From the NCBI RefSeq assembly GCF_001690195.1, contig NZ_LZGM01000009.1:1-38067 (forward strand): DNA of 38,067 bases. Direction: 5' to 3'. A program made the translations under genes and the position numbers. The notes beneath the pieces are model-generated. The model was not told where the DNA came from, did not search any database, and worked only from the letters and a program-made list of their open reading frames with translations. The stretch is from Gilliamella sp. wkB108 (GTDB taxonomy: Bacteria; Pseudomonadota; Gammaproteobacteria; Enterobacterales; Orbaceae). Of the stretch, positions 3,800-38,067 are shown piece by piece (the stretch's first letter is position 1; every line of letters begins with the position of its first letter).

Positions 3800-3811
3800 G
3801 AATAAAATCCA

Positions 3812-3840
3812 TTAAAAATAACCGCCAAAAATTGGCGGTT
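3812..3840 (-). terminator. intra-operon hairpin / partial terminator between binding protein and permease
   Basis: Perfect 9-bp stem AACCGCCAA (3820-3828) / TTGGCGGTT (3832-3840), loop of three bases. On the minus strand it is followed by ATTTTTAATGG, a fair T tract. It sits in the 62-base gap between the binding-protein stop and the permease start. Such hairpins are known to protect the upstream mRNA and attenuate downstream genes in binding-protein operons. Confidence 0.75.
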
Positions 3841-3861
3841 TAGTTATACAAAGAGAAGTAA

Positions 3862-4839
3862 TTATTTATCGACAATTTTTGCTGCTGATTTTAACACATC
3901 ATCAGATAATGTAACCCCTTGGCGTTCAGCAGCTTTTGTACTAATAGTTAACTGAGTAATGTTACCGACTTGTGGTGGAATATCACCTGGTTTTTCACCA
4001 TTGAGTATACGGATAACGATTTTACCCGCTTGTCGGCCAAGATCATAATAACTCATACCTAAAGCTGCAATAGCACCTCGCTCAGCTGAATCGGGATCAG
4101 ATGCAAGAAGAGGAATTTTACTTTCATTGGCAACTTTTGCTAAAGCTTCATAAGCTGAGACAACATTATTATCGGTAGTGGTATAGATTAAATCAACTTT
4201 ACCATTTAAGCTTCGAGCCGCAGTCGAGATGTCAGAAGTACGTTGTGCTGGAGCTGCAATAATTTTCATTCCTCTTTTTTCAAGAGCGGTTTGTAATTCT
4301 TTGAGAACAATAGTTGAATTGACTTCACTCGGACTATAAACATAACCAATGTTCTTAGCATTAGATTTTAATTTTAACATCATATCAATTTGTGTTTCTA
4401 ATGGTAACAGATCAGAAACGCCTGTAACATTCGTTTTTGATGCTTCCCAACTAGGTGTCAACTTAGCTACAACTGGATCTGTAACCGCAGTAAAAACGAT
4501 TGGGATAGTTTTTGTTGTAGCCACTAAAGCTTGTGAACTAGGTGTTGCGATACCGACGATAACATCGGGTTTACTTGCAACAAACTGTTTTGCTATTTGC
4601 GCGGCATTGGCGCTACTTCCTTGCGCACTCTTAAATTGTAATTTCAAATTTTCACCGGCAATATAACCATTGTCTTTTAACTCATCTTCTACACCTTTAC
4701 GCACATTATCTAAAGCTGGATGTTCAACAATTGCGGTAATGGCAACAAATTTCTGTTCAGCTTTTTGATCTGCTGATGATGAAAAAGCTATGACTGATAA
4801 ACCCAGTAACATAGCTATTTTTATAATAGATTTACGCAT
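3862..4839 (-). CDS. ABC transporter substrate-binding protein (ABC_sub_bind / TrpX-like), copy 1
   Basis: A 325-residue exported protein. The first 23 or so residues (MRKSIIKIAMLLGLSVIAFSSSA) are a signal peptide without a lipobox. The rest has the features of the ABC_sub_bind family: VAITAIVEHPALD near the N-terminus, SKPDVIVGIATPSSQA, GYVYSPSEVNS, YTTTDNNVVSAYEA and SYYDLGRQAG. Two alpha/beta lobes should bind the ligand in the periplasm. Members with known ligands bind aromatic amino acids (TrpX), but the ligand here is unproven. AGAGGT precedes the ATG. It is the first gene of the unit with the permease and ATPase and is paralogous to the gene at 5172-6131. Confidence 0.93.
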   Translation of the reverse strand: MRKSIIKIAMLLGLSVIAFSSSADQKAEQKFVAITAIVEHPALDNVRKGVEDELKDNGYIAGENLKLQFKSAQGSSANAAQIAKQFVASKPDVIVGIATPSSQALVATTKTIPIVFTAVTDPVVAKLTPSWEASKTNVTGVSDLLPLETQIDMMLKLKSNAKNIGYVYSPSEVNSTIVLKELQTALEKRGMKIIAAPAQRTSDISTAARSLNGKVDLIYTTTDNNVVSAYEALAKVANESKIPLLASDPDSAERGAIAALGMSYYDLGRQAGKIVIRILNGEKPGDIPPQVGNITQLTISTKAAERQGVTLSDDVLKSAAKIVDK

Positions 4840-5171
4840 ATTGGTACCTCTGTAATAATTTTTTTACAACCAAGCTAAATATGCTTTTACTATAAAGCAT
4901 ATTTGTGTAATTTTCTAGAGTAAAAAATGACGAAGGTGTAAATTTTAAATTACATTTTAATGGTTATGTTAATTTAAATAGCTTTAAAATTATCTTTTCA
5001 CCAACAGGGAATATTATCCATTATAGTTCACTGTAGAAAACTAACTAAATTATAGAAAATCAGGTATTATTCTATTTTAAAAAGGAATACTAAATGTATT
5101 CACTTTGCCCACACAATAGTGAGCAAAATGATATTAATTTAACCATTATCAATTCTAAAATAAAGTTAAGA
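4840..5171. other. intergenic region between the two binding-protein genes
   Basis: About 330 AT-rich bases with no gene. It should hold the promoter of the copy 1-permease-ATPase unit (minus strand). An imperfect hairpin at 5103-5127 (TTTGC..CAC / GTG..GCAAA, one mismatch) lies just after the copy 2 stop but has no T tract after it on the minus strand, so I do not call it a terminator. Confidence 0.55.
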
Positions 5172-6131
5172 TTATTGACCGATAACTTTATATGCTGACT
5201 GGATAATTTCTGGAGATAATGTTACTCCTTGTTTTTTAGCTGCATCCACATTCAGAACTAAACGTAGTGTTTGCCCAATTTCAGGTTTAATGTCTCCGGG
5301 TTTTTCCCCTTTTAAAATACGTACCACTAACTTACCTGATTGACGACCTACATCGTAATAACTCATGCCATATGCCGCAACCGCTCCACGTTCAATCGCA
5401 TCAGGAAAAGAGGCTAACAAAGGAATTTTGTTTTCATTAGCAAATTTTACTAATGATTCATAAGCAGATACTACATTATTATCAGTAGTGGTATAGATCA
5501 AATCAACCTTACCTTTCAAAGTATTTGCCGCAGTTGAAATATCAGCGGTACGTTGTGCCGGTACTGCGAAAAAAGCAATATTTTGTTCTGCCAGTAAAGT
5601 TTGCAGGCTTTTTAGTACTACCGTAGAGTTAATCTCATTAGGGCTGTAAATATAACCTACTGATTTCACATTTGGGACAATCTTTTTCATAAACTCAATT
5701 TGCGGTCCGGTTTCTTGCTGATCGGAAACGCCAGTAATATTGGTGCCAGACGGTTCCCAATTTTTAATTAATTTGGCGGCAATAGGATCGGTGATTCCTG
5801 CAAAAACTAAAGGGATCTGCTTGGTAGCCGCTGCAGTTGCTTGGGCGCTTGGTGTTGCAATAGCTACAATTACATCTGGTTTAGCTGCAACAAATTGCCT
5901 GGCAATTTGAGCTGCTGTTGCACTACTACCTTGCGCACTTTTATACTGCACATTTAAATCATCATTTAATCTATAACCATTCTCAATCAATTCATCTTTT
6001 ACACCATCACGGATTTGATCTAAAGATGGATGCTCAACGATAGCGGTAATCGCAACATTCTTAGTCGTATCAGCTAAAGTAATAAATGGAAAAAGTAATA
6101 ATATTGTTAGCAAAAAGCCATAACGTTTCAT
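5172..6131 (-). CDS. ABC transporter substrate-binding protein (ABC_sub_bind / TrpX-like), copy 2
   Basis: A 319-residue exported protein, clearly paralogous to the product of 3862-4839 over its whole length. They share ITAIVEHP, QYKSAQGSSATAAQIARQFVA-like and YTTTDNNVVSAYE segments. The signal peptide is MKRYGFLLTILLLFPFITLA, with cleavage near residue 20. It probably feeds the same permease with a related or identical ligand. The 332-base gap to copy 1 suggests separate promoters, so the two binding proteins may be expressed under different conditions. The ribosome site (GAGTG) is weaker than that of copy 1. Confidence 0.92.
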   Translation of the reverse strand: MKRYGFLLTILLLFPFITLADTTKNVAITAIVEHPSLDQIRDGVKDELIENGYRLNDDLNVQYKSAQGSSATAAQIARQFVAAKPDVIVAIATPSAQATAAATKQIPLVFAGITDPIAAKLIKNWEPSGTNITGVSDQQETGPQIEFMKKIVPNVKSVGYIYSPNEINSTVVLKSLQTLLAEQNIAFFAVPAQRTADISTAANTLKGKVDLIYTTTDNNVVSAYESLVKFANENKIPLLASFPDAIERGAVAAYGMSYYDVGRQSGKLVVRILKGEKPGDIKPEIGQTLRLVLNVDAAKKQGVTLSPEIIQSAYKVIGQ

Positions 6132-6365
6132 ATAAACACACTCGCAAACTAGTACAATAGTTCCATTCTAACGTTATAAAATAAAAATGTTAAGTTGTAT
6201 TTTTGTTTTATTGAAAATTATTTTAAAGTTAAGCTTCATTGGAAAAATTATAGATAGGTTAAAAAGTTGCAGAAATGGGATATGTTTGAGTTATTCGCTT
6301 TATCACTCAAATATAGGTAAAGACCTTTTACTTAAAGCATAATTTGATTTAACTGCTTTTCTTCT

Positions 6366-7271
6366 TTAGGCAAAAACAAAAGGATTAATGCCACTTTTAG
6401 CAAAACCTTCTTCTTCAGTTTTCATATCCAAAATAAGGGAGGCAATATCATCTGCAATCACTTCAATGTGAGGATCTTTATCTTGATCTAAGATTTTTAA
6501 GTAGCTACAACAAGCTTCACAACATTCTGTTTTAGTTGCAGAAAGTTCATTATCTAAAGAAAAATATTGAATATCTTTCATATTATCACAACTGGTACAT
6601 TTTACGCGAGGAACATACCATTCACTTTCACATAAGCTACAATGTAAATAACGTAAACCAACATTGTTGCCTAATTGAATGACGCTTGCAACAGGCATAC
6701 TACTACAAACCGGGCAATACCAATGTTTATTGGTATTTTCGGCGATAGCTTTACCTTTAATTTGGCTAGCAAGTTGGCTGTAATAAACGGATAGCGCAGA
6801 CCAGATAAACACTGATTCATTACCTTCCACCAGTTCAAATTCACCTTTAAGTAAATATATGGCTTTATTTTGCAATTGTTCAACACTATTTTGTTGAAGC
6901 TGTTCAATAACCTGTTTGATTTGCAAAGTTGTAGTTGGAAATGTATCTAAAATAGTTGCTAAGTAATCTTGCCATGAATTTGTCAGAGGAAAATTATTGA
7001 TACTTAACGGTGGTTGATCATTGTTTAATATATTGGTCAGATCTACAGTGATAGGCTTTTGTTTAACAATATTAGCTTGTTGTTCGGCAATAGTGGCACA
7101 GAAATTTAAGTAATCACTAAACGTACTCTCTTTTGCTAAAAATCGCAAACGTTCGGCTCTATGAATGTAAAGGGTTTTTGGTGAAGGATAAAATAATAAA
7201 GGAATTTGTCTAATAACTGAATTTACAGTTTGTTGTTCAAGTTGTTCTTGTGGAATGATTTTAATGCCCAT
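6366..7271 (-). CDS. fdhE: formate dehydrogenase accessory protein FdhE
   Basis: A 301-residue cytoplasmic, iron-binding rubredoxin-like protein needed for maturation of the respiratory formate dehydrogenases. The start at 7271 (MGIKIIPQE) lines up with E. coli FdhE (MSIRIIPQ); an in-frame extension of 16 residues to 7319 would run into the hairpin region and is unlikely. The four CxxC motifs of the family are present in order: CPVCSSMP, CSLCESEW, CTSCDNM and CEACCSYL. The C-terminal SGINPFVFA matches the E. coli tail (SSINPFLF). It lies directly downstream of the three structural genes, as in E. coli fdoGHI-fdhE, but after a terminator-like hairpin. Confidence 0.95.
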   Translation of the reverse strand: MGIKIIPQEQLEQQTVNSVIRQIPLLFYPSPKTLYIHRAERLRFLAKESTFSDYLNFCATIAEQQANIVKQKPITVDLTNILNNDQPPLSINNFPLTNSWQDYLATILDTFPTTTLQIKQVIEQLQQNSVEQLQNKAIYLLKGEFELVEGNESVFIWSALSVYYSQLASQIKGKAIAENTNKHWYCPVCSSMPVASVIQLGNNVGLRYLHCSLCESEWYVPRVKCTSCDNMKDIQYFSLDNELSATKTECCEACCSYLKILDQDKDPHIEVIADDIASLILDMKTEEEGFAKSGINPFVFA

Positions 7272-23997: not shown

Positions 23998-25374
23998 TTA
24001 ATAACAAATTTCATAACAAGGTTTATAAGCGGTTCCTCCCGGCAATTTCATTCGATCTTGTTTAATGAAGCTACGCAATAAATTATCTAGTTGCTTCATG
24101 ATCTCCGGATCACCTTGTAATTTATAAGGTCCATGTTCGGCGATTAATTTCATGCCAAACTCTTTAACATTACCAGCAACAATACCTGAAAACGCACGGC
24201 GTAAATCGGCGGCTAATAGCTCAACCGGCTGATCTTTATGCAAGTTTAATGCAGCCATATTCTCATGCGTTGGATCGAAAGGATGCTGTAGTGATTCATC
24301 AATTTTAAGTAACCAGTTAAAACCATATGCATCACCAGTGGCTAAACGTGATGATTTAACATGTTTTACTCCTTCTTTCATGATACGTGCTACTTGTTCT
24401 GGTGAATCAATCACAATTTGATAGAGTTTGGTTGCCTCATCGCCTAATGAACTACGAATAAAATTATCAATCGCAATAAAATACTCTTCGCACTCTTTAG
24501 GACCCGTTAATATAAGTGGTAGAGTTTGGGTTTTATTGGCGGGATTTAATAAAATACCTAGTATATACAGTAACTCTTCCGCTGTGCCTGGACCGCCTGG
24601 AAAGATGATAATACCATGAGCGATTCGCACAAAAGCCTCAAGACGCTTTTCGATATCCGGCATAATAATAAGTTCATTCACTAAGGCATTCGGTGGTTCA
24701 GCGGCAATAATTGATGGTTCAGTCATGCCAATAAATCGGCTATCTTTATAACGTTGCTGAGCATGACCAACAGCAGCCCCTTTCATCGGTGCTTCCATAA
24801 TTCCCGGACCACAACCCGTACAGATATTAAGCTCGCGTAAACCCAGTTGCATACCGACTTGGCGTGCATAGTAGTATTCATTTTCATTGATTGAATGTCC
24901 ACCCCAGCAGACAACTAAGTTTGGTTCTTCCCCTACATGAAGCGCATTAGCATTACGTAAAATAGAAAAAACCAGATTGGTGATATAAAAAGAGTGATCT
25001 CTGTCAAGTTTAACATTGGAGACTAACTGTTTAACGGCACTAATCTGACTATTTAAAAAAAGAATATCTCGCAGTACCGCAAAAAGGTTTGCTTGAATAG
25101 AACGAATTATTCGTTTATCAACAAAGGCACTTTCTGGTGCATTAACCAATTCTAATTTAACGCCACGCTCTTTGCTAATGACATTAATTTCAAAAGACTC
25201 AAATCTATCAAGTAGATCTTTAGTATTATCGGTTTTGCTACCGGCATTTAATGTCGCTAACGAACAATTTCTAAATAATTGGTAAAGTTCACTATTAGCT
25301 GACTTTTTTAAAATATCTACCTCAGCTTGAGCAAGTAAGTCCATTGAGCCTAAAGGGCTAATATGGGTGATCAT
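23998..25374 (-). CDS. ppnN: pyrimidine/purine nucleotide 5'-monophosphate nucleosidase
   Basis: Cleaves nucleoside monophosphates to base and ribose-5-phosphate; the E. coli enzyme (formerly YgdH) is a (p)ppGpp target. 458 residues from the ATG at 25374 ([12 protein letters not shown], identical to the E. coli start), with GGAGG 7 bases upstream; the ATG at 25386 contains that site and is rejected. The LOG-type nucleotide motifs are present: [14 protein letters not shown] in the middle and PGGPGTAEE later. The C-terminal half also follows E. coli closely, ending in PCYEIC. Confidence 0.96.
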
Positions 25375-25651
25375 CACAACCTCCATTTGACGGTTTTATC
25401 GGCAAGACTTCCATTATATACATAAACTGATCTAATAAGTAAAACAGAAAAAATAATATATTGATTTCAGATGAATTTTATATTGCGATTTTATGTTGTA
25501 TTCTAATTTATTATAATTTGGATGTGGTTAATATAAGGTGAATAATAATCTCTATCGATTAATCAAGATATAACGGTAAATTTGTTGAAGATTATGATAA
25601 AGATTAATACTCTAAAATAAAAAAATAAAACCAATATAAAGGTGATGAAAT

Positions 25652-26545
25652 ATGGATGGCAATTTAAATAATAATGAATATTACCAAATTATTACTGGTT
25701 ATATCACTGATTTTGAAGTTTTTGATAGTAAAAGATACTTTCTCAAGTCTCGTGAATCACTGGGTCTTCCGTCTATTGATTTATCCGAAATAGGTGAATT
25801 GGAACTTGTCAGATATGATATAAGAAAAGAGATCCATTCATTACAACGAAGCTCAAAAATTGTTACACACGACATTGTAGAGTATTTTCGTTGTAAATTA
25901 GGGGATAACCTTATTGAAGGTGTATTTGCACTTATCTCCTTCAAAGAAGGAGACTATGTAGAAATGGTGGTAGAGCTATTGCCAGGTGGCAGTTATTTTG
26001 CTTTTGCTGTACGTCGTGCAATTGATCATCGTTTATGGTTACATCCTCATGCAACGAGTGGAACGCAAGCATTAAATAAATATATGAAAAATAAGTCATC
26101 AGCAATTTACGGTACTTTTTTTATAACTAGCTTATTGGGAGTGGTATTATTGGTTTATTCTCTAATGAGAATGATAAGTGAAAAGTTAAGTTTTTTTATA
26201 ATACTCTATATCTTTTTATTAATATTAGGTTTGTTTTTAGTCTTTTGTGGATATAGTTTGATATCCATGAGGAAAAACAGATCTCGATCTGGATCAAAAG
26301 TTGCGGACAAGATTTTTGCGACTTTAGGTTATCCAAATCCAAAAGAAATAATGGTTGATTTAAAAACCGATAACAACAAATATGATTTTTACAAATTAAC
26401 TTCGCTTTATTTTAGTAATACAAAAGGTAGAAACAAAGTCAAAGGTGCGTTATGGCTTGCTCTGTATACTAATGCTCCCGCGATTCCTAGCTATATTAAC
26501 GTTATTCATACTGAAAATAATCTAGAAAAGAGGACTGGAAATTGA
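25652..26545 (+). CDS. two-helix membrane protein, T6SS-associated family suspected
   Basis: A 297-residue protein preceded by AAGGTGATG. The N-terminal soluble domain (about 1-148) contains ALISFKEGDYVEMVVE and YFAFAVRRAIDHRLWLHPH, which recall a family annotated as putative type VI secretion system effector. Two hydrophobic helices follow (about 151-174 and 180-204), then a basic stretch (MRKNRSRSGSK) and a soluble C-terminal part. I am not certain of the family, and whether it is a toxin, an adaptor or an unrelated membrane protein cannot be decided. The ribosome site of the family A gene behind it overlaps its stop codon, so the two are surely cotranscribed. Confidence 0.7.
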   Translation: MDGNLNNNEYYQIITGYITDFEVFDSKRYFLKSRESLGLPSIDLSEIGELELVRYDIRKEIHSLQRSSKIVTHDIVEYFRCKLGDNLIEGVFALISFKEGDYVEMVVELLPGGSYFAFAVRRAIDHRLWLHPHATSGTQALNKYMKNKSSAIYGTFFITSLLGVVLLVYSLMRMISEKLSFFIILYIFLLILGLFLVFCGYSLISMRKNRSRSGSKVADKIFATLGYPNPKEIMVDLKTDNNKYDFYKLTSLYFSNTKGRNKVKGALWLALYTNAPAIPSYINVIHTENNLEKRTGN

Positions 26546-27720: not shown

Positions 27721-30700
27721 ATGGTACTATCCTCAATAAAAAAATGGCGATATCCGATCGTTGTAGAAGATAAGAAAAAGAAGGTTAACGCTAATCATTA
27801 TTTCCGTGCATTACTATCTGCCAAAAGTGGTTTTTATCCGGTAAGTATTAATAAACTTGTACATATGGGGATCCACATTGACCAAAAGGTATTAGATGAG
27901 TTACACATAGGTAAACCATTAAAAGTAAATTGCATCGCTGATGGCGAAGTGATTGCTTATCGCGTCAATGGTCATTACCCAAAAATTGATTATGGCGAAA
28001 AAGTCGCTTTTTTCTCAACGGGATTTGTATTAGTTCGACATTTACTTGAAATGGAACGTGTACCTGAAAAAAAATCTGAAACAACAGATAGTGATCCTCC
28101 GACTGCTGACAACAATACTCCCACTCAAGCTGCTAATGCTGACACAAATTCACCGTCTGACTCAACCCCCGCCGCTGCCGATACAGCGCCAAGTCAGTCC
28201 CCTACAACAGATACAGGGACAAGTCCTGTCACTACTCCAGCTCCAACCACCACAGAGACAACAGAAAATGAAAAAAAAGAGCCGGGACATCAACTCTATT
28301 TTTACAGTCTCTATATGCATATGGCTGATTCGGCTTATTATGATAAAGATCCCAAAAAACCAGAACCAGCGCCGGCCTTTTGGGATCAAGAAACTTATCG
28401 AGTGATTGATAATCAACTTCAAAATATTGAGGGATTACGCATCCGTAAAGAACCAAAAGGTTCAATTAAAGCCGTATTGCAAAATGGAACAAAAGTTAAT
28501 TTAAATCTTGCGGTTCATGATAAAGGCAAACAATGGTATGGTGTGTCATCTTTAGCTGATGGTTATACCTCTATTCCGACTTTGACACCTTTTGAATATA
28601 AAAATGGTGAAAAAATCGAAATGATTTTAGGTTGGGTTTATACCGGGGAAATGGTAAACGAATCACTATTTGAAATTAAAGAAAGTAAAGATTCAAATCT
28701 TGCAAGCTCGAAAGGATTAGCAGTAAAAAATGAAAGTGGAGAAAAAGTTATTTCAACAATACCGATTGGCACACAAATTAAGATCACCGGAACCAAAAAT
28801 AAAAAAGGTTTAGTTGAATTAACCGAAATTATCCGCAATGGCAAGCCCACTATTCCATTACCCGAAACGAAAAAAATGGTTAATTTTGCTTCTTTGGAGA
28901 AGATATCCAGAGGGAAAAAATATGATGAAGTAGTGGTATTAGATAAACCTTATTCAATAAAGGCGGGTGAATTAGTTGGGCATATTGGACATTATCAAGA
29001 ATATGAAGATGCAATCGATATATCCAAAAATGATGACGAAAAGTTGCAAAATATTGAAACTTTACCCGTTGACACTTTACTAAATAGATATTTCAAACCA
29101 TTGCTACATATAGAATGTTTTACCTGTGAAGATTTGCCCGATTACATTACACAAACCCAGACTGAGGCAGGTAAATTGCCTGATGATGAAAAAACACTTT
29201 TAGCTATATCAAAAGGGGCAAAACTACTGGCGCATCCCAATAGAGAAGACACCACAGTAGGTAAACCCTATAAGGGTACAAAAATAAAGGTAAAAAGTAA
29301 AAATGTCGATAATAAATGGATACAAATTGAAATTAACACTTCAGAAACCGAAACCAAGACATTATGGATAGAAAATAGTGAAGAGGTGGCTAAAACAGCC
29401 AAGCCGGATGGTGAAATTGCATTAAAGGAAAACACGGTAGCATGGAGCCAACATCCTTTACAGTCCACTGAATTATCTAAAAGCACTCAAACTGTAGGTA
29501 CACCATTACTGTTATCTATACATGATGAAAAATTCACCTCACGAGATAAACGAGCTGAAGATGAACAAGACACTTTATGGTGGCAAGTTGAAGCACTTGA
29601 CGACAAAAATCTTCCAATAGCTGGTTGGGTGTCAAGCAAAGGAGAAGGCGTAAAAAAAGTAAGCGCTTGGGATTGGTTTGATTTTACCCAATTAACTGAA
29701 AGTGCTAGCTTATTGGAATTTTACAAAGATGTGGAATTATCTTTTAAACGAGATAAATATAATTCATCATTAGATAATTACAAACCTACCTTAAAAGCAA
29801 CACTATCTATTTTAGATAAACAATATCCAACAGAATCGAAGCTATATGCTTATATTAAGGAAGTCTATTTTAATAGAATAATTGACAAAGATATTCTGAC
29901 ACAGGCGCTTGCTCGTCTACTTATAAACTATGAAAGTGAATGGTATTGTGAAATCGATACTGAAGGTAAAATGCCAAAATGGGAAGAGTTAAATAATGAG
30001 ATGACCGATCTTGTAAAAAATCTTTTAGATTATCTGAAAAATGGAGACGAGGAAAAGAAAGAAATTTGTGTCAACGGTATATGTGTAAACCAAGGTATAT
30101 TAAATAAAAAAGAAGAAATTAAAAATATGCTGGAACAAAAACGCCACGAAATTGAGAAAAAATCCGCTCAAAATGAACCCACTGAAAATAATGACAAAGC
30201 AGAGAGTGAAGAAGACAATGTAAATGATGAAATAATTACTTATCTTCAAGAACAGGCTACTCGCTGGGAAAAAGAGAAAGAGAAAATCAAAAAATGCTTA
30301 TGGTGGAAAGATGTGGTTAAAGGATTAGCAAGCCAAAATAAACCAACATCCGATTCAAGCAAAACCAATGAGAATGGAGATACCTCAAACACATCAACAG
30401 AACAAACCGAAGCAAAAACACCCCCAGCTACGCTAAACCCAGACGGTAAAGCTTGGTTTATCCATCCTATTTCAATAATGATGCTAACAAATTATAAAAA
30501 AGATATTATTTTCCCATTCAAAGTAAAACCAATAAATAATTTTGATAAGCAATTTGGTGCTAATTACAATTGGACTAAAGATAATAACCAGACAATGTTT
30601 GGGTGGGGGCGCAGTGGCGGTACAAGAAAACATGCCGCAAGAGATTTATATACTGAACCATATACAGAGATTGTTGCAATTAGTGATGGTGTTATATTAC

Positions 30701-31080
30701 AAGTTGCTCCTTTTTATTCTCAAACTGATCAAATAACAATAAAACATGAAACATGGAGTGGACGACAATTTATTATTCGTTATGGTGAAGTTGATCATGA
30801 TAGTGCTAAAAAACTTAAAGTAGGTGATTTTGTCAAACAAGGAACTGTAATCGCAAAAACAGGTAAATTATTAAAAGACGGTAAACCAGAACTTGTTATA
30901 AACGGAAAAGTTATATATATGTTACATTTAGAATATTATTCCGGTAATAGTGGATTAAATTTAACAAAACCATTAAGTGACAAAGCAAACAAACCTTATG
31001 AAAGACGAAAAGATTTACTGGATCCTCTTGATATTTTGAAAGAAGGATATCGAAATTCATTTGGTGAAGATCCTCAATAA
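27721..31080 (+). CDS. large M23 metallopeptidase-domain protein, putative peptidoglycan-targeting effector
   Basis: 1119 residues, AAGGA 7 bases before the ATG, no signal peptide. An N-terminal M23-like fold (about 36-112) has GIHID, IADGEVIAYR and FVLVRH; its end, FYSLYMHMAD (about 194-203), is split off by a Pro/Thr/Asp linker (about 113-188). SH3-like segments follow (about 228-290, 493-560, 565-650) with HIECF near 463, then a helical part with ESEWYCEID (about 739), a charged coiled coil (about 800-860) and a second linker. The C-terminal M23 domain (about 905-1115) has HAARD (His971, Asp975), AISDGVI, RYGEVD (about 1020-1025) and MLHLEYYSG (His1069). RYGEV and MLHLE replace the usual YxHL and HLHFE, a variant I associate with T6SS-type M23 toxins. 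Secretion route not visible here; toxin role inferred. Confidence 0.82.
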   Translation: MVLSSIKKWRYPIVVEDKKKKVNANHYFRALLSAKSGFYPVSINKLVHMGIHIDQKVLDELHIGKPLKVNCIADGEVIAYRVNGHYPKIDYGEKVAFFSTGFVLVRHLLEMERVPEKKSETTDSDPPTADNNTPTQAANADTNSPSDSTPAAADTAPSQSPTTDTGTSPVTTPAPTTTETTENEKKEPGHQLYFYSLYMHMADSAYYDKDPKKPEPAPAFWDQETYRVIDNQLQNIEGLRIRKEPKGSIKAVLQNGTKVNLNLAVHDKGKQWYGVSSLADGYTSIPTLTPFEYKNGEKIEMILGWVYTGEMVNESLFEIKESKDSNLASSKGLAVKNESGEKVISTIPIGTQIKITGTKNKKGLVELTEIIRNGKPTIPLPETKKMVNFASLEKISRGKKYDEVVVLDKPYSIKAGELVGHIGHYQEYEDAIDISKNDDEKLQNIETLPVDTLLNRYFKPLLHIECFTCEDLPDYITQTQTEAGKLPDDEKTLLAISKGAKLLAHPNREDTTVGKPYKGTKIKVKSKNVDNKWIQIEINTSETETKTLWIENSEEVAKTAKPDGEIALKENTVAWSQHPLQSTELSKSTQTVGTPLLLSIHDEKFTSRDKRAEDEQDTLWWQVEALDDKNLPIAGWVSSKGEGVKKVSAWDWFDFTQLTESASLLEFYKDVELSFKRDKYNSSLDNYKPTLKATLSILDKQYPTESKLYAYIKEVYFNRIIDKDILTQALARLLINYESEWYCEIDTEGKMPKWEELNNEMTDLVKNLLDYLKNGDEEKKEICVNGICVNQGILNKKEEIKNMLEQKRHEIEKKSAQNEPTENNDKAESEEDNVNDEIITYLQEQATRWEKEKEKIKKCLWWKDVVKGLASQNKPTSDSSKTNENGDTSNTSTEQTEAKTPPATLNPDGKAWFIHPISIMMLTNYKKDIIFPFKVKPINNFDKQFGANYNWTKDNNQTMFGWGRSGGTRKHAARDLYTEPYTEIVAISDGVILQVAPFYSQTDQITIKHETWSGRQFIIRYGEVDHDSAKKLKVGDFVKQGTVIAKTGKLLKDGKPELVINGKVIYMLHLEYYSGNSGLNLTKPLSDKANKPYERRKDLLDPLDILKEGYRNSFGEDPQ

Positions 31081-31095
31081 ATTAGGAGTGGCCGT

Positions 31096-31899
31096 GTGAA
31101 AAATTTTTTATTTAGAGTTTTTTTATTATTTTCATTGCCATATTTTACTTTAGCTTCTGATATTGATTTTAATAAAAACCATTATTATTTAATAAAAATA
31201 GATAAGATAAATGTAAAAGAACAAGAAAGAGCATGGTTTGTCGGATCTTTAAATACTTTGATTAGTAGTAATGAACAAAATATAAATATTTTAGGCTGTG
31301 ATTTTAAGCGTTTCGAAGTAAGTAAAGAAAATATTAATAATCAATTAAATAAAATTAATTTTTTTGATGATTATGATGAAGAGTTAAAAAAATATGGTTT
31401 ATCATTAAATAATTTTAATAGCCTTTATTTTATAGATTCATCAAATCAATCTGAAAGATGTTCTAATTTAAGTTATAAAATTATCATACTACTTAATAAT
31501 AATGAATTAATGATTCCTTATGAAAGATATTTAATTTTCTATAAACAATTAGCCATTACAGATGAAAATAAAATAAATAATTTAAAACACAATAAAAAAT
31601 GTCTTGAAAGAAAATATTTTGAAATGGGGTCAATGGATGTTTGTTACTATAAAAATATGACAATATTAGATGTATATACAGCAATGAGTTTTGAACCTTC
31701 TAACGTATTTAGGAAAAAAATTAAAATAGGTGAAAATTTTACCGATACTTATGATGATCTTAGTGTTGAGGTCAAATATAAATGGAAAGGAAAAAATAAA
31801 TTAGAAATTGAACAAAACTTTGATGGAGGCGTAACATCTTATACATTTATTTACCAAAATAATAGAACTAAATTAATAGCTAATTATTATCCTGATTAA
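31096..31899 (+). CDS. exported four-cysteine protein, family A copy 2 (putative cognate immunity protein)
   Basis: 267 residues, GTG start at 31096 with TAGGAG about 7 bases before it, 15 bases after the M23 effector stop. The signal peptide is MKNFLFRVFLLFSLPYFTLA. All four family cysteines are present (LGCDF, ERCSN, KKCLE, DVCYYKNMT). Its place directly behind the intact effector, in the same operon, makes it the best candidate for the cognate immunity protein, acting in the periplasm where an M23 peptidase would attack peptidoglycan. Its sequence is about as different from copies 3 and 4 as from copy 1. Confidence 0.82.
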   Translation: MKNFLFRVFLLFSLPYFTLASDIDFNKNHYYLIKIDKINVKEQERAWFVGSLNTLISSNEQNINILGCDFKRFEVSKENINNQLNKINFFDDYDEELKKYGLSLNNFNSLYFIDSSNQSERCSNLSYKIIILLNNNELMIPYERYLIFYKQLAITDENKINNLKHNKKCLERKYFEMGSMDVCYYKNMTILDVYTAMSFEPSNVFRKKIKIGENFTDTYDDLSVEVKYKWKGKNKLEIEQNFDGGVTSYTFIYQNNRTKLIANYYPD

Positions 31900-31910
31900 A
31901 TATTTGTAAA

Positions 31911-32377
31911 ATGATGCTAACAAATTATAAAAAAAATATTATTTTCCCCTTAAAAATCAAAAGCAATAAATAATTTTGATAAGCAATTTTGTGTTAATTT
32001 CAATTGGGCTAAAGATAATAACCAGACAATGTTTGGGTAGGGGGGATATGGAGGTACAAGATATTTATATACTGAACCATATACATAAACTGTTGCAATT
32101 AGTGATGGAATAGTTTTAGCAATAAGAGATTTTTATGATAAGGCATATCAAATTATCATAAGACATTAAATTACTTAATGAATTAGATGAATCACGGCTA
32201 ACTATTAATGGGAAGGTGATTTTTATGTTTTATCTAGAATATTATTCCGGCTCAAGTGAATTAGACTTAAAAATTCCATTGACTAATAAAGGCAATAAAC
32301 CTTACGAAAGGCGTAAAGATTTATTAGATCCTCTGGAATAAGGATATCGAAATACCTTTGGGACTGCACCACACTAA
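31911..32377 (+). pseudogene. degenerate copy of an M23 effector C-terminal domain
   Basis: Follows the coding sequence of the intact effector from MMLTNYKK to the C-terminus but cannot be translated. A TAG replaces the Trp codon in the FGWG motif (near 32038), other in-frame stops and shifts occur, the HAARD segment is lost, and roughly the stretch between the IKHE and VINGKV motifs is deleted. The end is well preserved (LEYYSG, KPYERRKDLLDPL, GYRNTFG) and then reads TAPH-stop, unlike the EDPQ end of the intact gene. So it derives from a different effector allele. It ends 11 bases before family A copy 3, matching the spacing and TAGGAG junction of the intact effector and copy 2. Confidence 0.88.
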
Positions 32378-32447
32378 CTAGGAGTAATATGAAGAATTTT
32401 TTATTAAGTTATTTATTATTAATTTTAGTTTCCAATTTTGTTTTTGC
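32368..32447 (+). repeat. 80-bp direct repeat, copy 1 (junction and signal-peptide segment)
   Basis: Identical by eye to 35886-35965: 21 bases of junction with TAGGAG plus the first 59 bases of the family A gene. It ends exactly where copies 3 and 4 begin to differ. Confidence 0.85.
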
Positions 32448-33204
32448 ATTAGATATTGATGTGAAAAACAATAATTATTATACACTAATGAAGGATAGGT
32501 TAAATAAACAAGTCACACAAACAAAAGAAGGGGAAAAATTAGTTAGAGAATTAGAACAATTAGTTACTTATAATCAACAAAAAATAGTTTTTTGGGGTTG
32601 TGATTTTAAACCGATAGAAGGAAACAAAGAGGATATTATTAAGGAATTAAAAAAAAATAATTTTTTTGAAAATTATGGCAATGAATTAAATAAATATCAC
32701 TTAACATTATCTAACTTTAGTAAAATTTATACTAATGATAGGTCTAGTTCATCAACTCTTTGTAATAGTAATAATTATATGAGTATTATTCAGCTTGATA
32801 GTAATCAATTAATGATTCCATACGAAAGCCAATTAATCTTTTATAAACGTCCTTCCACACAAGAAGAGAGAAATATTAGGAATTATTATAATGGGAAATG
32901 CTATGAATTGGATCAGGTTGATATGGATTCTACTGATATTTGTTATTATAAAAATATGACCATTTTGGATGTTTATAATGTAATGAGTTTTAATTCTGAT
33001 AAAATTTTTAGAAAAAAAATAAAAGTAGGAAAAAATTTCTCTGTTACTTATGATGATGAAGATATGCGTGTGGAAGTAGAATATAAATGGTCTGGTAAAA
33101 ACAAATTAAAAATCACACAAAATTTTGATGGTGGAGTGACTACCTATACTTTTATCTACCAAGGTAATAAAACAAAATTAATAACAGTTTATTCACCTGA
33201 TTAA
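32389..33204 (+). CDS. exported four-cysteine protein, family A copy 3 (putative orphan immunity protein)
   Basis: 271 residues, ATG at 32389 preceded by TAGGAGTAAT. The signal peptide is MKNFLLSYLLLILVSNFVFA. The cysteines are WGCDF, TLCNS, GKCYE and DICYYKNMT. Its last 65 residues are identical to those of copy 4, and its signal peptide is nearly so, while the middle differs. Preceded by a dead effector fragment, it looks like the immunity gene of a displaced effector. Family B copy 1 follows after 16 bases. Confidence 0.82.
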   Translation: MKNFLLSYLLLILVSNFVFALDIDVKNNNYYTLMKDRLNKQVTQTKEGEKLVRELEQLVTYNQQKIVFWGCDFKPIEGNKEDIIKELKKNNFFENYGNELNKYHLTLSNFSKIYTNDRSSSSTLCNSNNYMSIIQLDSNQLMIPYESQLIFYKRPSTQEERNIRNYYNGKCYELDQVDMDSTDICYYKNMTILDVYNVMSFNSDKIFRKKIKVGKNFSVTYDDEDMRVEVEYKWSGKNKLKITQNFDGGVTTYTFIYQGNKTKLITVYSPD

Positions 33205-34546
33205 AAGAAGATAAATCACAATGATACTAAATAAAAGGAATTACCTTATCCTAGTTTTTTTAACTTTCTTTATGTCAGCTGTTTCGGCTCAAACAGAAGA
33301 GGACGAAAAGGAAGAAGAGCAATTAATGCAAAAATGGGGAGAAAGAGATTTTGCTGAAGAAGTTGGCATAGTCTCTGAGTTTCTCCTAAGTAAAGGTTAT
33401 AAAATCCCTAGTGAAAAAAGTTTCAAACAAAAAAGTTGGGATTTTTTTGGTATTGATGTTGATTCAATAACATCTGATTGTCAATCTTTGCTTAGCAAGT
33501 ACGATTATTGTTGTTTTACTAAAAATGGTCGTTTTTTACTTACTTATGGTGAAACATTTCGGGTTAGTGTATACGATCGTTTACAAGTTATTCTTACTCC
33601 TAAACAAGGATTAGAATTACTCAATAGCCCTGATAATGGTTTTTCTCCACATCTTATTGCTTATAATAAATTACTTTTTAATGATAATGTTGATCCTTAC
33701 GTTAAAAATTATTTTTTAAAAAATCGAGCAAGTTCACTGCAAGAAGTTGTAATTTATTTTAATTATGAAACAAATAGTTTGTTATATGAAGCGTCCTTAC
33801 CTGTGTGGGACGATGATTTAAGAAATATGTGGCATTTTCTTTTCTATAATAATTATCAGAAAGGATATAGAAAGCGCCTGTTGAATGATTTGTACAATCA
33901 ATCTGGTCAATATTTTATATCTACTTTACTAAAGGATTTAACTAAAAATTGGCATGCATATCAGCAAGGAATTACAATTGTTGGTGATAAAAAAATTAGA
34001 ATTTTGCCTATATCGCAAGATAAAGCTTTATTACATCTGATTAAATTACAAAGCCAGCATCAGGACAGTGAAACAAGTTTAGCTGATAGCCAACATAAGG
34101 CATACCAATATTTGGTTAATTTTTACAAAATAGACAATGAGCTTGAACCAAGACTCAAAGAAAATAATTATTATAATATGGGGTTAAAAGTATTAACTGA
34201 AGAACAAAAAATTATTTCTGAAGATCAATACAAATTAACAGAAAATCATTATATTACGAAATCAAATGATGATTATATCAATTTCCGCAGTGAACCAAAC
34301 TCTAAAGCGACCGTTATCAGCAAATTATTAAATAATACAGATCTTATTAAAATTAACACTCAAGGAGAGTGGTTGTATGTCAAACTAACTGATAACCCAT
34401 CAGTGAAAGGTTACATTCATCTAAGTCAATTAGAATATAACGATAATAATTAATTTAATGCATATATTGACGCAGTCAATTTATCAACATAATAAGGTTA
34501 AGGTTAGGTCATGATGATTAACAAAATAGGGAAAAAAATTATTATA
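33010..34546 (+). repeat. long direct repeat, copy 1
   Basis: 1537 bases that I find without difference at 36531-38067 (offset 3521). It covers the end of a family A gene, all of a family B gene and the first 36 bases of the next family B gene. The left border is at AGAAAAAAAAT; the right border of the second copy is the window end, so the repeat may be longer. Confidence 0.93.
33221..34453 (+). CDS. exported SH3b-domain protein, family B copy 1 (putative immunity or accessory protein)
   Basis: 410 residues. The signal peptide is about 1-23 (ending VSA-QTEE), followed by an acidic stretch and a helical body with LIAYNKLLFND, MWHFLFYNN, KGYRKRLLNDL and LADSQHKAYQYL. The C-terminal bacterial SH3 domain (about 344-408) has NFRSEPNSKA, GEWLYVKL and KGYIHLSQLEY. 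SH3b domains commonly bind peptidoglycan or mediate protein contact. It lies 16 bases after family A copy 3. The protein is identical to that of 36742-37974. Function unknown; a periplasmic partner of the family A proteins is inferred from the constant order A then B. Confidence 0.8.
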   Translation: MILNKRNYLILVFLTFFMSAVSAQTEEDEKEEEQLMQKWGERDFAEEVGIVSEFLLSKGYKIPSEKSFKQKSWDFFGIDVDSITSDCQSLLSKYDYCCFTKNGRFLLTYGETFRVSVYDRLQVILTPKQGLELLNSPDNGFSPHLIAYNKLLFNDNVDPYVKNYFLKNRASSLQEVVIYFNYETNSLLYEASLPVWDDDLRNMWHFLFYNNYQKGYRKRLLNDLYNQSGQYFISTLLKDLTKNWHAYQQGITIVGDKKIRILPISQDKALLHLIKLQSQHQDSETSLADSQHKAYQYLVNFYKIDNELEPRLKENNYYNMGLKVLTEEQKIISEDQYKLTENHYITKSNDDYINFRSEPNSKATVISKLLNNTDLIKINTQGEWLYVKLTDNPSVKGYIHLSQLEYNDNN

Positions 34547-35674
34547 GTTCTGGCTTTTTTTTCAATTAAGGTATTGGCTAACGCACAAGCAGAGGTTGCC
34601 CCAACTAATAATTCAGACAAAACCATAAATAAGATATCAAGACTACTTGAGCAAGAACAATATCAACCACCTGATTCAAAGAAGTTTAAACAGAAAATTG
34701 ACGATTATTTTGGTCTGAATACCGGAGTAATTATGGATGATTTTTGTCAAACACATACCAGTGAAGATAATTATTATGGCATAACAAATAATGGTAAATT
34801 TATTTACTCCTGTTCATTAATGAATTTATTTTCAAATGGCACATCAGATGATGAAAAAGATAAATATGTTCAACAGCTAATTGCTTATAACAAATTACTT
34901 TTTAATGATGATGATTCTGCTAAAAATTACTTATTAAAGCATAAGTATTTTTTAGCAGAACCCGTAGTTAATTTTAACTATGAAAAAGATATTCGATTAT
35001 ATGAAATAGTTGTATCAAATTCAATTGTTTCCGACGAAGATGAATGGCATTTTCTATTTTATAATAACGAATCAAAAGGTTATAGAAAACGATTTTTAAA
35101 TGATATGTTATTAGATAAAGCTTATTTCCGAGGTTTGTTAATGACGTTATATATCAACTGGAATAAAAAGCAAAAAAATACAAGGGTTCAAGGGAAAGAG
35201 GTAATAATTTCACAAGCAACTAAAGACAAAGCGCTTATTCATTTAATTAAATATCGTAGCTATCTACAAAATAATGGTGAAACTTTAGAGCGTAGCCAAC
35301 ACTTAGCTTATCAATATTTGACAGATTTTAGTGACAAAGATAATCAATTAAAAGAAAGGTTAAAGAAAAACAATTATTATGGTATGGGGATAATAGTTTC
35401 GGAAGAGAAACAAAAAGTAATTTCAAATAGCCATAATGAAATACTGGAGAATCATTATCATACAAAATCGGGCAAAAAAGATATAAATTTACACCAAAAA
35501 GCAAACATAAAATCGCCTATTATCATGAAACTAGCAAATCATACTGATGTAATAAAGCTTTATATAAACTATATAGATTTTGATAAAAATAATGAATGGT
35601 TGCATGTAAAGTTGGCTAACAATCCATCAATAAGTGGTTATATACCTATTAAATATTTAGAGTATAGCGATTAA
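34511..35674 (+). CDS. exported SH3b-domain protein, family B copy 2 (divergent paralogue)
   Basis: 387 residues; the start is ATG at 34511 or the next codon, also ATG. The signal peptide is about 1-26 (ending NA-QAEV). It shares with copy 1 the blocks LIAYNKLLFND, EWHFLFYNN, KGYRKRFLND, SQHLAYQYL and YYGMG, and an SH3b-like tail (about 316-387: INLHQKAN, EWLHVKL, SGYIPIKYLEY). Overall divergence is large, so this is an old duplication, unlike the identical pair 33221/36742. A short hairpin CGCTTT-ATAC-AAAGCG (35701-35716) follows the gene. Confidence 0.78.
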   Translation: MMINKIGKKIIIVLAFFSIKVLANAQAEVAPTNNSDKTINKISRLLEQEQYQPPDSKKFKQKIDDYFGLNTGVIMDDFCQTHTSEDNYYGITNNGKFIYSCSLMNLFSNGTSDDEKDKYVQQLIAYNKLLFNDDDSAKNYLLKHKYFLAEPVVNFNYEKDIRLYEIVVSNSIVSDEDEWHFLFYNNESKGYRKRFLNDMLLDKAYFRGLLMTLYINWNKKQKNTRVQGKEVIISQATKDKALIHLIKYRSYLQNNGETLERSQHLAYQYLTDFSDKDNQLKERLKKNNYYGMGIIVSEEKQKVISNSHNEILENHYHTKSGKKDINLHQKANIKSPIIMKLANHTDVIKLYINYIDFDKNNEWLHVKLANNPSISGYIPIKYLEYSD

Positions 35675-35761
35675 GATTAGTTATACAAATTGCTAAATGA
35701 CGCTTTATACAAAGCGATTAGTAAAAATTTGAATTGGAGACATGACTTAATGATTTAGGAT

Positions 35762-35885
35762 GAAAAAAACAAAAACCGAAGCCAAAACACCCCGAGCCAC
35801 GCTAAACCCAGACGGTAAATCTTGGCTTATCCATCCTATTTCAATAATGATGCTAACAAATTGTAAAAAAGATATTATTTTCCCA
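35762..35885 (+). pseudogene. short remnant of an M23 effector (linker and start of the C-terminal domain)
   Basis: About 90 percent identical by eye to 30403-30515 of the intact effector (TEAKTP, TLNPDGK, WLIHPISIMMLTN, KDIIFP). It then jumps directly to the ACCACACTAACTAGGAG junction of the next family A gene, so the whole M23 catalytic part is deleted. The remnant is in frame with the gene behind it (ATG at 35760), giving a possible but probably unused 49-residue extension. Confidence 0.85.
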
Positions 35886-35965
35886 ACCACACTAACTAGG
35901 AGTAATATGAAGAATTTTTTATTAAGTTATTTATTATTAATTTTAGTTTCCAATTTTGTTTTTGC
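35886..35965 (+). repeat. 80-bp direct repeat, copy 2
   Basis: Partner of 32368-32447, at an offset of 3518 and not 3521, because the two family A genes differ by one codon in length between this repeat and the long one. Confidence 0.85.
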
Positions 35966-36725
35966 GTCAAATATTGATGTAGAAAATAACAATTATTATA
36001 CCTTGATAAAAGATAAATTAAATGAACAAGTTGAACAAACAGATGAAAGAGAAAGATTATTGAGAATATTAGATGATTTAGTCACTTATAATAAACAAGA
36101 AGTAATTTTTTTAGGTTGTGAATTTAAACTGCTTGGTGAAGATAAAGAAGATATTAATAATGTATTAAAAGAAAATAATTTTTTTGTTAATTATGGCAGA
36201 GATTTAAAAAAATATGATTTATTATCAAATAAATTTAGCCAACTTTTTGTAATTAATAGAAATAGTTTATCTAACAATTGTAATCAAAGCAATCATACAA
36301 ATATTATCAAACTAAATAATAATGAATTAATAGTTCCTTATGAAAATCTATTAGTTTTTTATCAACGTTTGTCTAAACAAGATGAACAAGATATAAATAA
36401 TTTTCATCGGTATGAAAAATGCCTTAAAACTAAGCAAGTCGACATGGATACAACAATCACTTGTAACTATAAAAATATGACTATTATGAATGTTTATAAT
36501 GCATTACGTTACTATCCTGAATATATCTTCAGAAAAAAAATAAAAGTAGGAAAAAATTTCTCTGTTACTTATGATGATGAAGATATGCGTGTGGAAGTAG
36601 AATATAAATGGTCTGGTAAAAACAAATTAAAAATCACACAAAATTTTGATGGTGGAGTGACTACCTATACTTTTATCTACCAAGGTAATAAAACAAAATT
36701 AATAACAGTTTATTCACCTGATTAA
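35907..36725 (+). CDS. exported four-cysteine protein, family A copy 4 (putative orphan immunity protein)
   Basis: 272 residues from the ATG at 35907, chosen because TAGGAG precedes it and it begins with a signal peptide; the longer frame from 35760 would bury that signal behind an effector remnant. The cysteines are LGCEF, NNCNQ, EKCLK and ITCNYKNMT. The N-terminal 19-20 and C-terminal 65 residues equal those of copy 3, but the core (about 21-207) is clearly diverged. This fits replacement of the specificity region or partial gene conversion. Family B copy 3 follows after 16 bases. Confidence 0.82.
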   Translation: MKNFLLSYLLLILVSNFVFASNIDVENNNYYTLIKDKLNEQVEQTDERERLLRILDDLVTYNKQEVIFLGCEFKLLGEDKEDINNVLKENNFFVNYGRDLKKYDLLSNKFSQLFVINRNSLSNNCNQSNHTNIIKLNNNELIVPYENLLVFYQRLSKQDEQDINNFHRYEKCLKTKQVDMDTTITCNYKNMTIMNVYNALRYYPEYIFRKKIKVGKNFSVTYDDEDMRVEVEYKWSGKNKLKITQNFDGGVTTYTFIYQGNKTKLITVYSPD

Positions 36726-36741
36726 AAGAAGATAAATCACA

Positions 36742-37974
36742 ATGATACTAAATAAAAGGAATTACCTTATCCTAGTTTTTTTAACTTTCTTTATGTCAGC
36801 TGTTTCGGCTCAAACAGAAGAGGACGAAAAGGAAGAAGAGCAATTAATGCAAAAATGGGGAGAAAGAGATTTTGCTGAAGAAGTTGGCATAGTCTCTGAG
36901 TTTCTCCTAAGTAAAGGTTATAAAATCCCTAGTGAAAAAAGTTTCAAACAAAAAAGTTGGGATTTTTTTGGTATTGATGTTGATTCAATAACATCTGATT
37001 GTCAATCTTTGCTTAGCAAGTACGATTATTGTTGTTTTACTAAAAATGGTCGTTTTTTACTTACTTATGGTGAAACATTTCGGGTTAGTGTATACGATCG
37101 TTTACAAGTTATTCTTACTCCTAAACAAGGATTAGAATTACTCAATAGCCCTGATAATGGTTTTTCTCCACATCTTATTGCTTATAATAAATTACTTTTT
37201 AATGATAATGTTGATCCTTACGTTAAAAATTATTTTTTAAAAAATCGAGCAAGTTCACTGCAAGAAGTTGTAATTTATTTTAATTATGAAACAAATAGTT
37301 TGTTATATGAAGCGTCCTTACCTGTGTGGGACGATGATTTAAGAAATATGTGGCATTTTCTTTTCTATAATAATTATCAGAAAGGATATAGAAAGCGCCT
37401 GTTGAATGATTTGTACAATCAATCTGGTCAATATTTTATATCTACTTTACTAAAGGATTTAACTAAAAATTGGCATGCATATCAGCAAGGAATTACAATT
37501 GTTGGTGATAAAAAAATTAGAATTTTGCCTATATCGCAAGATAAAGCTTTATTACATCTGATTAAATTACAAAGCCAGCATCAGGACAGTGAAACAAGTT
37601 TAGCTGATAGCCAACATAAGGCATACCAATATTTGGTTAATTTTTACAAAATAGACAATGAGCTTGAACCAAGACTCAAAGAAAATAATTATTATAATAT
37701 GGGGTTAAAAGTATTAACTGAAGAACAAAAAATTATTTCTGAAGATCAATACAAATTAACAGAAAATCATTATATTACGAAATCAAATGATGATTATATC
37801 AATTTCCGCAGTGAACCAAACTCTAAAGCGACCGTTATCAGCAAATTATTAAATAATACAGATCTTATTAAAATTAACACTCAAGGAGAGTGGTTGTATG
37901 TCAAACTAACTGATAACCCATCAGTGAAAGGTTACATTCATCTAAGTCAATTAGAATATAACGATAATAATTAA
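36742..37974 (+). CDS. exported SH3b-domain protein, family B copy 3, identical to copy 1
   Basis: 410 residues, identical to the product of 33221-34453, with identical flanks. Signal peptide, helical body and C-terminal SH3b domain are as described there. The identity points to a very recent duplication or to ongoing gene conversion. Confidence 0.82.
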   Translation: MILNKRNYLILVFLTFFMSAVSAQTEEDEKEEEQLMQKWGERDFAEEVGIVSEFLLSKGYKIPSEKSFKQKSWDFFGIDVDSITSDCQSLLSKYDYCCFTKNGRFLLTYGETFRVSVYDRLQVILTPKQGLELLNSPDNGFSPHLIAYNKLLFNDNVDPYVKNYFLKNRASSLQEVVIYFNYETNSLLYEASLPVWDDDLRNMWHFLFYNNYQKGYRKRLLNDLYNQSGQYFISTLLKDLTKNWHAYQQGITIVGDKKIRILPISQDKALLHLIKLQSQHQDSETSLADSQHKAYQYLVNFYKIDNELEPRLKENNYYNMGLKVLTEEQKIISEDQYKLTENHYITKSNDDYINFRSEPNSKATVISKLLNNTDLIKINTQGEWLYVKLTDNPSVKGYIHLSQLEYNDNN

Positions 37975-38031
37975 TTTAATGCATATATTGACGCAGTCAA
38001 TTTATCAACATAATAAGGTTAAGGTTAGGTC

Positions 38032-38067
38032 ATGATGATTAACAAAATAGGGAAAAAAATTATTATA
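38032..38067 (+). CDS. family B copy 4, 5' end only (cut by window end)
   Basis: The 36 bases after the ATG at 38032 equal the start of the 34511-35674 gene (MMINKIGKKIII), with the same upstream AGGTTAGGTC. It shows that the A-B-B unit repeats again, so the array continues past the window. Confidence 0.8.
   Translation, partial: MMINKIGKKIII

Follow-up and report, generated by a model that had tools for sequence, protein, structure and literature searches.

Among the effectors of the type VI secretion system (T6SS), the WHIX class takes its name from a WHxxxH motif; its members mostly carry peptidoglycan-targeting domains, and the genes that neighbour them mostly encode products with a signal peptide (PMC12135965, Fridman et al. 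2025). Other systems come close to the locus described here: the T6SS immunity-gene arrays of Vibrio cholerae, in which orphan immunity genes are retained downstream as effectors are replaced (PMC5361080); the Rhs toxins of bee-gut bacteria, with C-terminal displacement and with orphan toxin ends and immunity genes behind the full gene (PMC5727410, PMC8125069); and the Salmonella pair Tlde1/Tldi1, in which a T6SS toxin with an L,D-transpeptidase fold is paired with an immunity gene (PMC9638812). The locus in question lies on contig NZ_LZGM01000009.1 of Gilliamella sp. wkB108 (Orbaceae), which was analysed at its full length of 38,067 nucleotides (the window) and makes up the whole of C9, one of the 129 contigs of a 3.08-Mb genome. 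Protein hits that carry an organism name come from Gilliamella or Candidatus Schmidhempelia. It holds the gene of a 1119-residue protein that ends in an M23-type domain, and an array of genes of two families of exported proteins, here called A and B. We read the locus, with a probability of about 80%, as a WHIX-related T6SS effector gene together with an immunity-gene array, in which A would counter M23 tips and the pair B1+B2 would counter YkuD tips.

The likeness to the WHIX class as described by Fridman et al. extends from the N-terminal homology to WHxxxH proteins and the retained HxxxH to the presence of a T6SS in the genome, VgrG beside relatives, wall-targeting C-terminal domains and a presumptive exported product encoded downstream; the difference is that the window protein has V for W and that I, M or V also takes the place of W in most Orbaceae homologues listed. 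The C-terminal M23 and YkuD tips of the Orbaceae fall outside the C-terminal domains named in Table 1 of that paper (which places 145 proteins under "Others"), its Table 2 names M23 for N-terminal extensions of WHIX proteins, and its main text makes no mention of Gilliamella, displacement, cassette or array. Compared with the V. cholerae arrays, tips rather than whole effectors seem to be displaced here, and the array consists of copies of two immunity-like families and includes an exact duplication. The bee-gut Rhs systems share the gut community and the T6SS with this locus, but they have an Rhs core and Rhs toxins instead of a WHIX-type protein, and the words "peptidoglycan" and "peptidase" have 0 occurrences in the main texts of the two papers. 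Tlde1/Tldi1 resembles the YkuD tips and their presumptive immunity genes in the L,D-transpeptidase fold and in the gene arrangement, but the Orbaceae domain forms the end of a long WHIX-type protein and is followed by two B genes in tandem. WHIX effectors and immunity arrays are already known; what is new, as far as seen, is that M23 and YkuD occur as C-terminal tips on the WHIX class, that there are two further families of immunity-like proteins, and that displaced tips form arrays.

The effector and the array are laid out as follows:

27721-31080, + strand: relative of WHIX-type T6SS effectors, 1119 aa, with a conserved part at ~1-920 and an M23 tip at ~927-1119
27859-27882, + strand: VHMGIHID (residues 47-54), where WHIX proteins have the WHxxxH motif
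30442-30471, + strand: junction motif DGKAWFIHPI (residues 908-917), preceding the variable tip
30499-31077, + strand: M23-type C-terminal tip, presumptive toxin domain (PF01551; 8-member alignment)
31096-31899, + strand: A2, family A, GTG start, 15 bases past the effector stop; presumptive immunity protein of the M23 tip
~31901-32371, + strand: second M23-tip remnant, broken by stops and a gap
32389-33204, + strand: A3, member of family A, with 84% identity to the A gene that adjoins the closest effector (L098)
33221-34453, + strand: B1, family B, with a C-terminal SH3_3 domain (PF08239, 27.6 bits, cut-off 27)
34511-35674, + strand: B2, paralogue (42% identical) and tandem partner of B1; SH3_3 below cut-off
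35769-35897, + strand: effector fragment (residues 894-936), with the junction and the first M23-type tip residues, in frame with A4
35907-36725, + strand: A4, a chimeric member of family A, identical to A3 in its last part
36742-37974, + strand: B3, second copy of B1, with an identical protein
38032-38067, + strand: second B2-type gene, first 36 bases, cut by the contig end
26554-27351, + strand: A1, orphan copy of family A with no M23 tip upstream; export signal by eye

This gene order, with four copies of A, three of B and the start of a fourth, is the one given by the original prediction, which had been made from the letters of the window. Its picture of the locus as one of polymorphic-toxin type is likewise supported: an effector with a wall-enzyme domain is accompanied by exported proteins, presumptively for immunity, and some of the immunity genes are orphans. 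It placed the beginning of the array at 27721, but the fourth A copy (A1) precedes that position; and its "dead effector" is indeed a broken effector piece (~31901-32371), but one that comprises the C-terminal tip only and not a whole effector. This tip has decayed, with one TAG and three TAA in one matched piece and one TAA in the other. The A2-A4 proteins are 50-55% identical to A1, and this relation, together with the 42% identity of B1 and B2 and the exact repeat described below, argues that the array is not a product of chance. The export signals of the A and B proteins are typical N-terminal ones, judged by eye.

The relation to the WHIX class is carried by the long conserved part of the effector. 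The only Pfam domain above cut-off in the protein is Peptidase_M23 (PF01551, residues 970-1059, 34.9 bits, cut-off 28.7), by which a peptidoglycan-targeting domain is fused to the WHIX-type part. Effector matches occur in 25 of 44 Orbaceae genomes; among the matches listed the long ones mostly end near residue 920-930, which points to a long stretch that is conserved and a tip that varies. Residues 1-920, used as the query, gave 368 homologues among 8000 scored candidates, and the 120 that were listed were analysed: the top ones come from Gilliamella and Orbus, the lower ones from Pseudomonas and others, and part of them have the C-terminal domains PF01551, PF01520, PF05838, PF16754, PF00182 or PF00959. 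WHxxxH is present in 69 of the 120, and a pattern finds HxxxH at the same place in 113, preceded by W (69), I (19), M (16) or V (9); among the remaining seven, HxxxH is recognisable by eye in four, and three are pieces without that region. The homology to WHxxxH proteins of Pseudomonas and others, which were judged to be WHIX proteins by motif and architecture, has E values from 1e-45 to 1e-57. In the window effector the motif reads YPVSINKLVHMGIHID (VHMGIH), with V instead of W; in L103, an effector of the same genus whose M23 tip is of the same kind, it reads WHGGIH. Since the strict WHxxxH motif is missing, the protein is best regarded as a divergent WHIX relative, homologous by its sequence but without the W, and not as a proven member of the class.

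A T6SS is present in the genome of the window, judging from the two components searched for: TssB is matched on G000:C85 (179.7 bits) and VgrG on G000:C102. TssB was found in 23 of the 25 effector-positive genomes and in 9 of the 19 effector-negative ones (Fisher p 0.0017), and the effector-positive genomes that lack it are G016, whose effector match is weak, and G035, which is 74% complete. A VgrG gene lies directly upstream of four of the six long effectors with listed upstream open reading frames (L113, from the window's genome, L098, L119 and L122). The same genome has four further long effector relatives, on G000:C102, C84, C83 and C122, with open frames of 1131-1207 codons, some of which are perhaps shortened by contig ends.

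Behind the conserved part and a shared junction, the effectors have exchangeable tips. The motif DGKAWFIHP[VI], with its close variants, occurs 44 times in 40 fetched stretches and the window. A Pfam match to YkuD was obtained for the three B-associated tips searched (42.2, 34.0 and 29.7 bits; cut-off 23.4), and 18 other tips gave M23 (two), M15/VanY (one), phage lysozyme (two), Amidase_2 (one), GH19 (two, and one more just below cut-off) and PG_binding_1 (one), with no Pfam match at E 0.01 in 8 of the 18. GH19 is formally a chitinase family. Judging from these matches, the recognised tips of the Orbaceae effectors are mostly of the cell-wall type.

The gene that follows varies with the tip. 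Of the full tips located through the junction motif, five of six M23 tips have A behind them (the exception is L103) and four of four YkuD tips have B1, and the 31 other junction occurrences are followed by neither, with unrelated open reading frames in 28 (many with an export signal by eye), a contig end in two and nothing in one. Two more intact pairs of an M23 tip and A, in L096 and L098, lie outside the junction-motif search, and the gap between tip and A is 17-28 bases, stop included, in all seven intact pairs. Given that A stands behind M23 tips and B behind YkuD tips, the two families are presumptive immunity genes for two different toxins.

The tally of family A comprises 21 copies that cover at least 200 model positions (9 shorter matches were dropped), and the upstream sequence is readable for 20 of them. 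Directly upstream lies an M23 tip, its remnant or, for A4, the junction and the first tip residues in 13 of the 20; of the other seven, two (A1 and the A copy in G030:C7) come after an ExIF gene or what remains of one, and five follow neither ExIF nor an M23 tip. It could be proposed from the two ExIF cases that A is the immunity protein of an ExIF-type neighbour, or a general inhibitor of wall enzymes, and that its adjacency to M23 has another reason, all the more as A shows no co-divergence with the M23 tip. Both cases, however, lie at one chromosomal site (ppnN-moaA) and so perhaps go back to a single event, and the 13 of 20 behind M23 tips or remnants stand against 0 of 31 behind other tip occurrences, which leaves this proposal very little credence.

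Family A also occurs in other company. An intact orphan A gene is found at 7452-8264 of L093 (G011:C17), in a genome without a TssB match. In L100 (G030:C6), two tandem open reading frames of 526 and 527 aa (3211-4788 and 5057-6637) have A in frame with a 256-aa protein, and this partner is found on its own, too, behind the gene of a Tox-REase-5 toxin (45.1 bits); family A keeps company here with the neighbour protein of another toxin. Two exported proteins of L102 (G030:C2; 6062-6931 and 7206-8051) are distantly related to A (A profile E 3e-12 and 1e-8) and have no Pfam match.

Family B shows a comparable association. A YkuD tip or remnant lies 0-10 bases upstream of B1 in six of eight cases, and the two exceptions, both in the window, follow A. 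B2 stands behind B1 in six of seven B loci (the B2 gene of G023 has an in-frame TAG), and G041:C59 has B1 alone. B1 is, on this arrangement, a presumptive immunity protein whose target, a YkuD tip, the window does not contain.

The original prediction had taken the pairing of A with B as constant and had suggested that the two together form a two-component immunity unit for the M23 effector. In the window, A3 and B1 as well as A4 and B3 adjoin, with a 16-base spacer at both junctions, and 36-residue B2-like matches (38% identity, E ~4e-4) were found before two A genes elsewhere (L089 and L092) in a search of 700 bases upstream, which also counts against separate roles for A and B. The second of the window's junctions, however, belongs to an exact copy:

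33010-34546, + strand: 1537-bp block, first copy, identical to 36531-38067
36531-38067, + strand: 1537-bp block, second copy, identical to 33010-34546 and cut by the contig end

The block recurs without difference over its 1537 bp, and A4 is 77-86% identical to A3 in its first part and less so in the middle (in 100-base steps), the last 195 bases being identical. The A-B pairing in the window is secondary, having been copied within this duplication. Moreover, A1 and A2 have no B; outside the window A and B lie on separate contigs and behind different tips; and none of the fetched A loci outside this contig, whether from the same genome or from others, showed a B at E 1e-4. The constant pairing does not hold, then, and a joint A+B unit is highly improbable; the recurrent pair is B1+B2. 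The rest of the prediction fared better: neither family has a match above the curated cut-offs of Pfam, NCBIfam or PADLOC, except SH3_3 at the end of B1, which is in keeping with the prediction's remark that it recognised neither as a described immunity family, and a survey of homologues did not place them mostly away from toxin genes, A lying by M23 in 13 of 20 cases and B1 by YkuD in six of eight.

Several observations weigh against reading the locus as a WHIX-related effector with an immunity array. To the missing W (VHMGIH) must be added the fact that no vgrG lies just upstream of the window effector, L103 or L123. M23 enzymes are expected to have the catalytic set HxxxD and HxH. In the alignment of the window's M23 tip, HxxxD and LHLE are retained in all eight members; of the two His of HxH the second is kept, but M or I replaces the first in all eight, and on account of this change the activity of the tip is not certain. 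Seven of the 20 A copies have no M23 tip upstream, and the identities of tip and adjacent A are uncorrelated over seven pairs (r -0.21; 4233 of 5040 permutations at least as high). The closest effector, L098, whose tip is 83% identical, adjoins an A gene that resembles A3 (84%) far more than A2 (49%), from which it follows that A genes seem to be exchanged beneath similar tips and that A2 and A3 may both act on the window's M23 tip. Clear charge complementarity is absent (tip +5.1, A2 -1.4). Furthermore, the 40 stretches were picked for their A, B or long effector matches, and the tallies do not represent a random sample.

The last of these points concerns G026, a one-contig genome with TssB, in which an open M23-tipped effector is followed by only ~40 residues of A, with no other A match in the genome. 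(This effector is L103, at 2753-6316 of G026:C1, and a VasX_N protein lies farther on behind it.) The near loss of A from an effector-bearing genome would suit the explanation that A and B do not confer immunity but serve the effectors as accessory proteins, by helping them to fold in the periplasm or as partners of the enzyme; inhibition by A or B is itself inferred, and B1 bears an SH3_3 domain, as cell-wall enzymes do. Against it, intact A and B genes outlast tips that have decayed or vanished, A being present even in G011, which lacks TssB; exported proteins would be unlikely helpers of a T6SS cargo made in the cytoplasm; and the other tips of the effector family mostly have unrelated open reading frames next to them, many with an export signal by eye. 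An accessory role is considered unlikely on these grounds.

The array, presumptive immunity genes included, lies at a site that varies within the genus. On its left side are two further genes:

23998-25386, - strand: ppnN, left flank of the array
25652-26545, + strand: T6SS_Burk_ExIF membrane protein, a putative type VI secretion system effector (NF041560, 99.9 bits, cut-off 90)

The ExIF-type gene is the flank directly before A1, and its membership in the array is not shown. In G030, radA and ppnN are followed by an ExIF remnant, an A gene, the gene of an exported protein of 308 aa and moaA. Contig C66 of the window's genome opens with the last part of an A gene, then has a fragment of an M23 tip and moaA, so the array of the window probably extends to moaA. 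ppnN and moaA lie on one contig in 30 of 35 same-genus genomes, in the usual head-to-head orientation in 27 and in another in three, and in the 27 their distance ranges from 296 bases to 13.4 kb (14 genomes have <1 kb, 10 have 1-5 kb and three have 6.5-13.4 kb). The interval between ppnN and moaA is a variable insertion site that carries the array. The 308-aa exported protein (L090, 8138-9061) has no Pfam match and has relatives (30-41%) in other fetched stretches; it is perhaps one more immunity family.

If the locus is indeed a WHIX-related effector gene with its immunity array, the conserved N-terminal ~920 residues, the WHIX-type part, would load the protein on the T6SS spike, and the C-terminal M23 tip would attack peptidoglycan in the periplasm of a rival. 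The exported A proteins would bind and block M23 tips of the window's type, protecting the owner from itself and its kin, and the B1+B2 pair would block the YkuD-fold (L,D-transpeptidase-like) tip of the same effector family. New cassettes of tip and immunity gene would arrive by recombination at the shared junction; old tips decay as their immunity genes persist and duplicate, giving the array A, A, B, B, A, B. The family relations, the association of tips with genes, the decay and the duplication are seen in the sequences themselves, and secretion, enzymatic activity, binding, protection and the recombination route are inferred. A more far-reaching version sees the WHIX-type effectors of the Orbaceae as an exchangeable-tip system with displaced cassettes, in which the YkuD tip is countered by the paralogous pair of B1, with its SH3 domain, and B2, perhaps by occupying the peptidoglycan substrate and not the toxin. 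We hold this version to be unlikely; if it were true, B1+B2 would be a two-component immunity unit, other than the A+B unit proposed originally.

The proposed reading ties two undescribed exported families to two specific wall-enzyme toxin domains, which makes binding and protection directly testable. It would extend the WHIX class, described in 2025, to the Orbaceae of the bee gut, and the array would show how immunity genes accumulate in a symbiont that lives in a small gut community.

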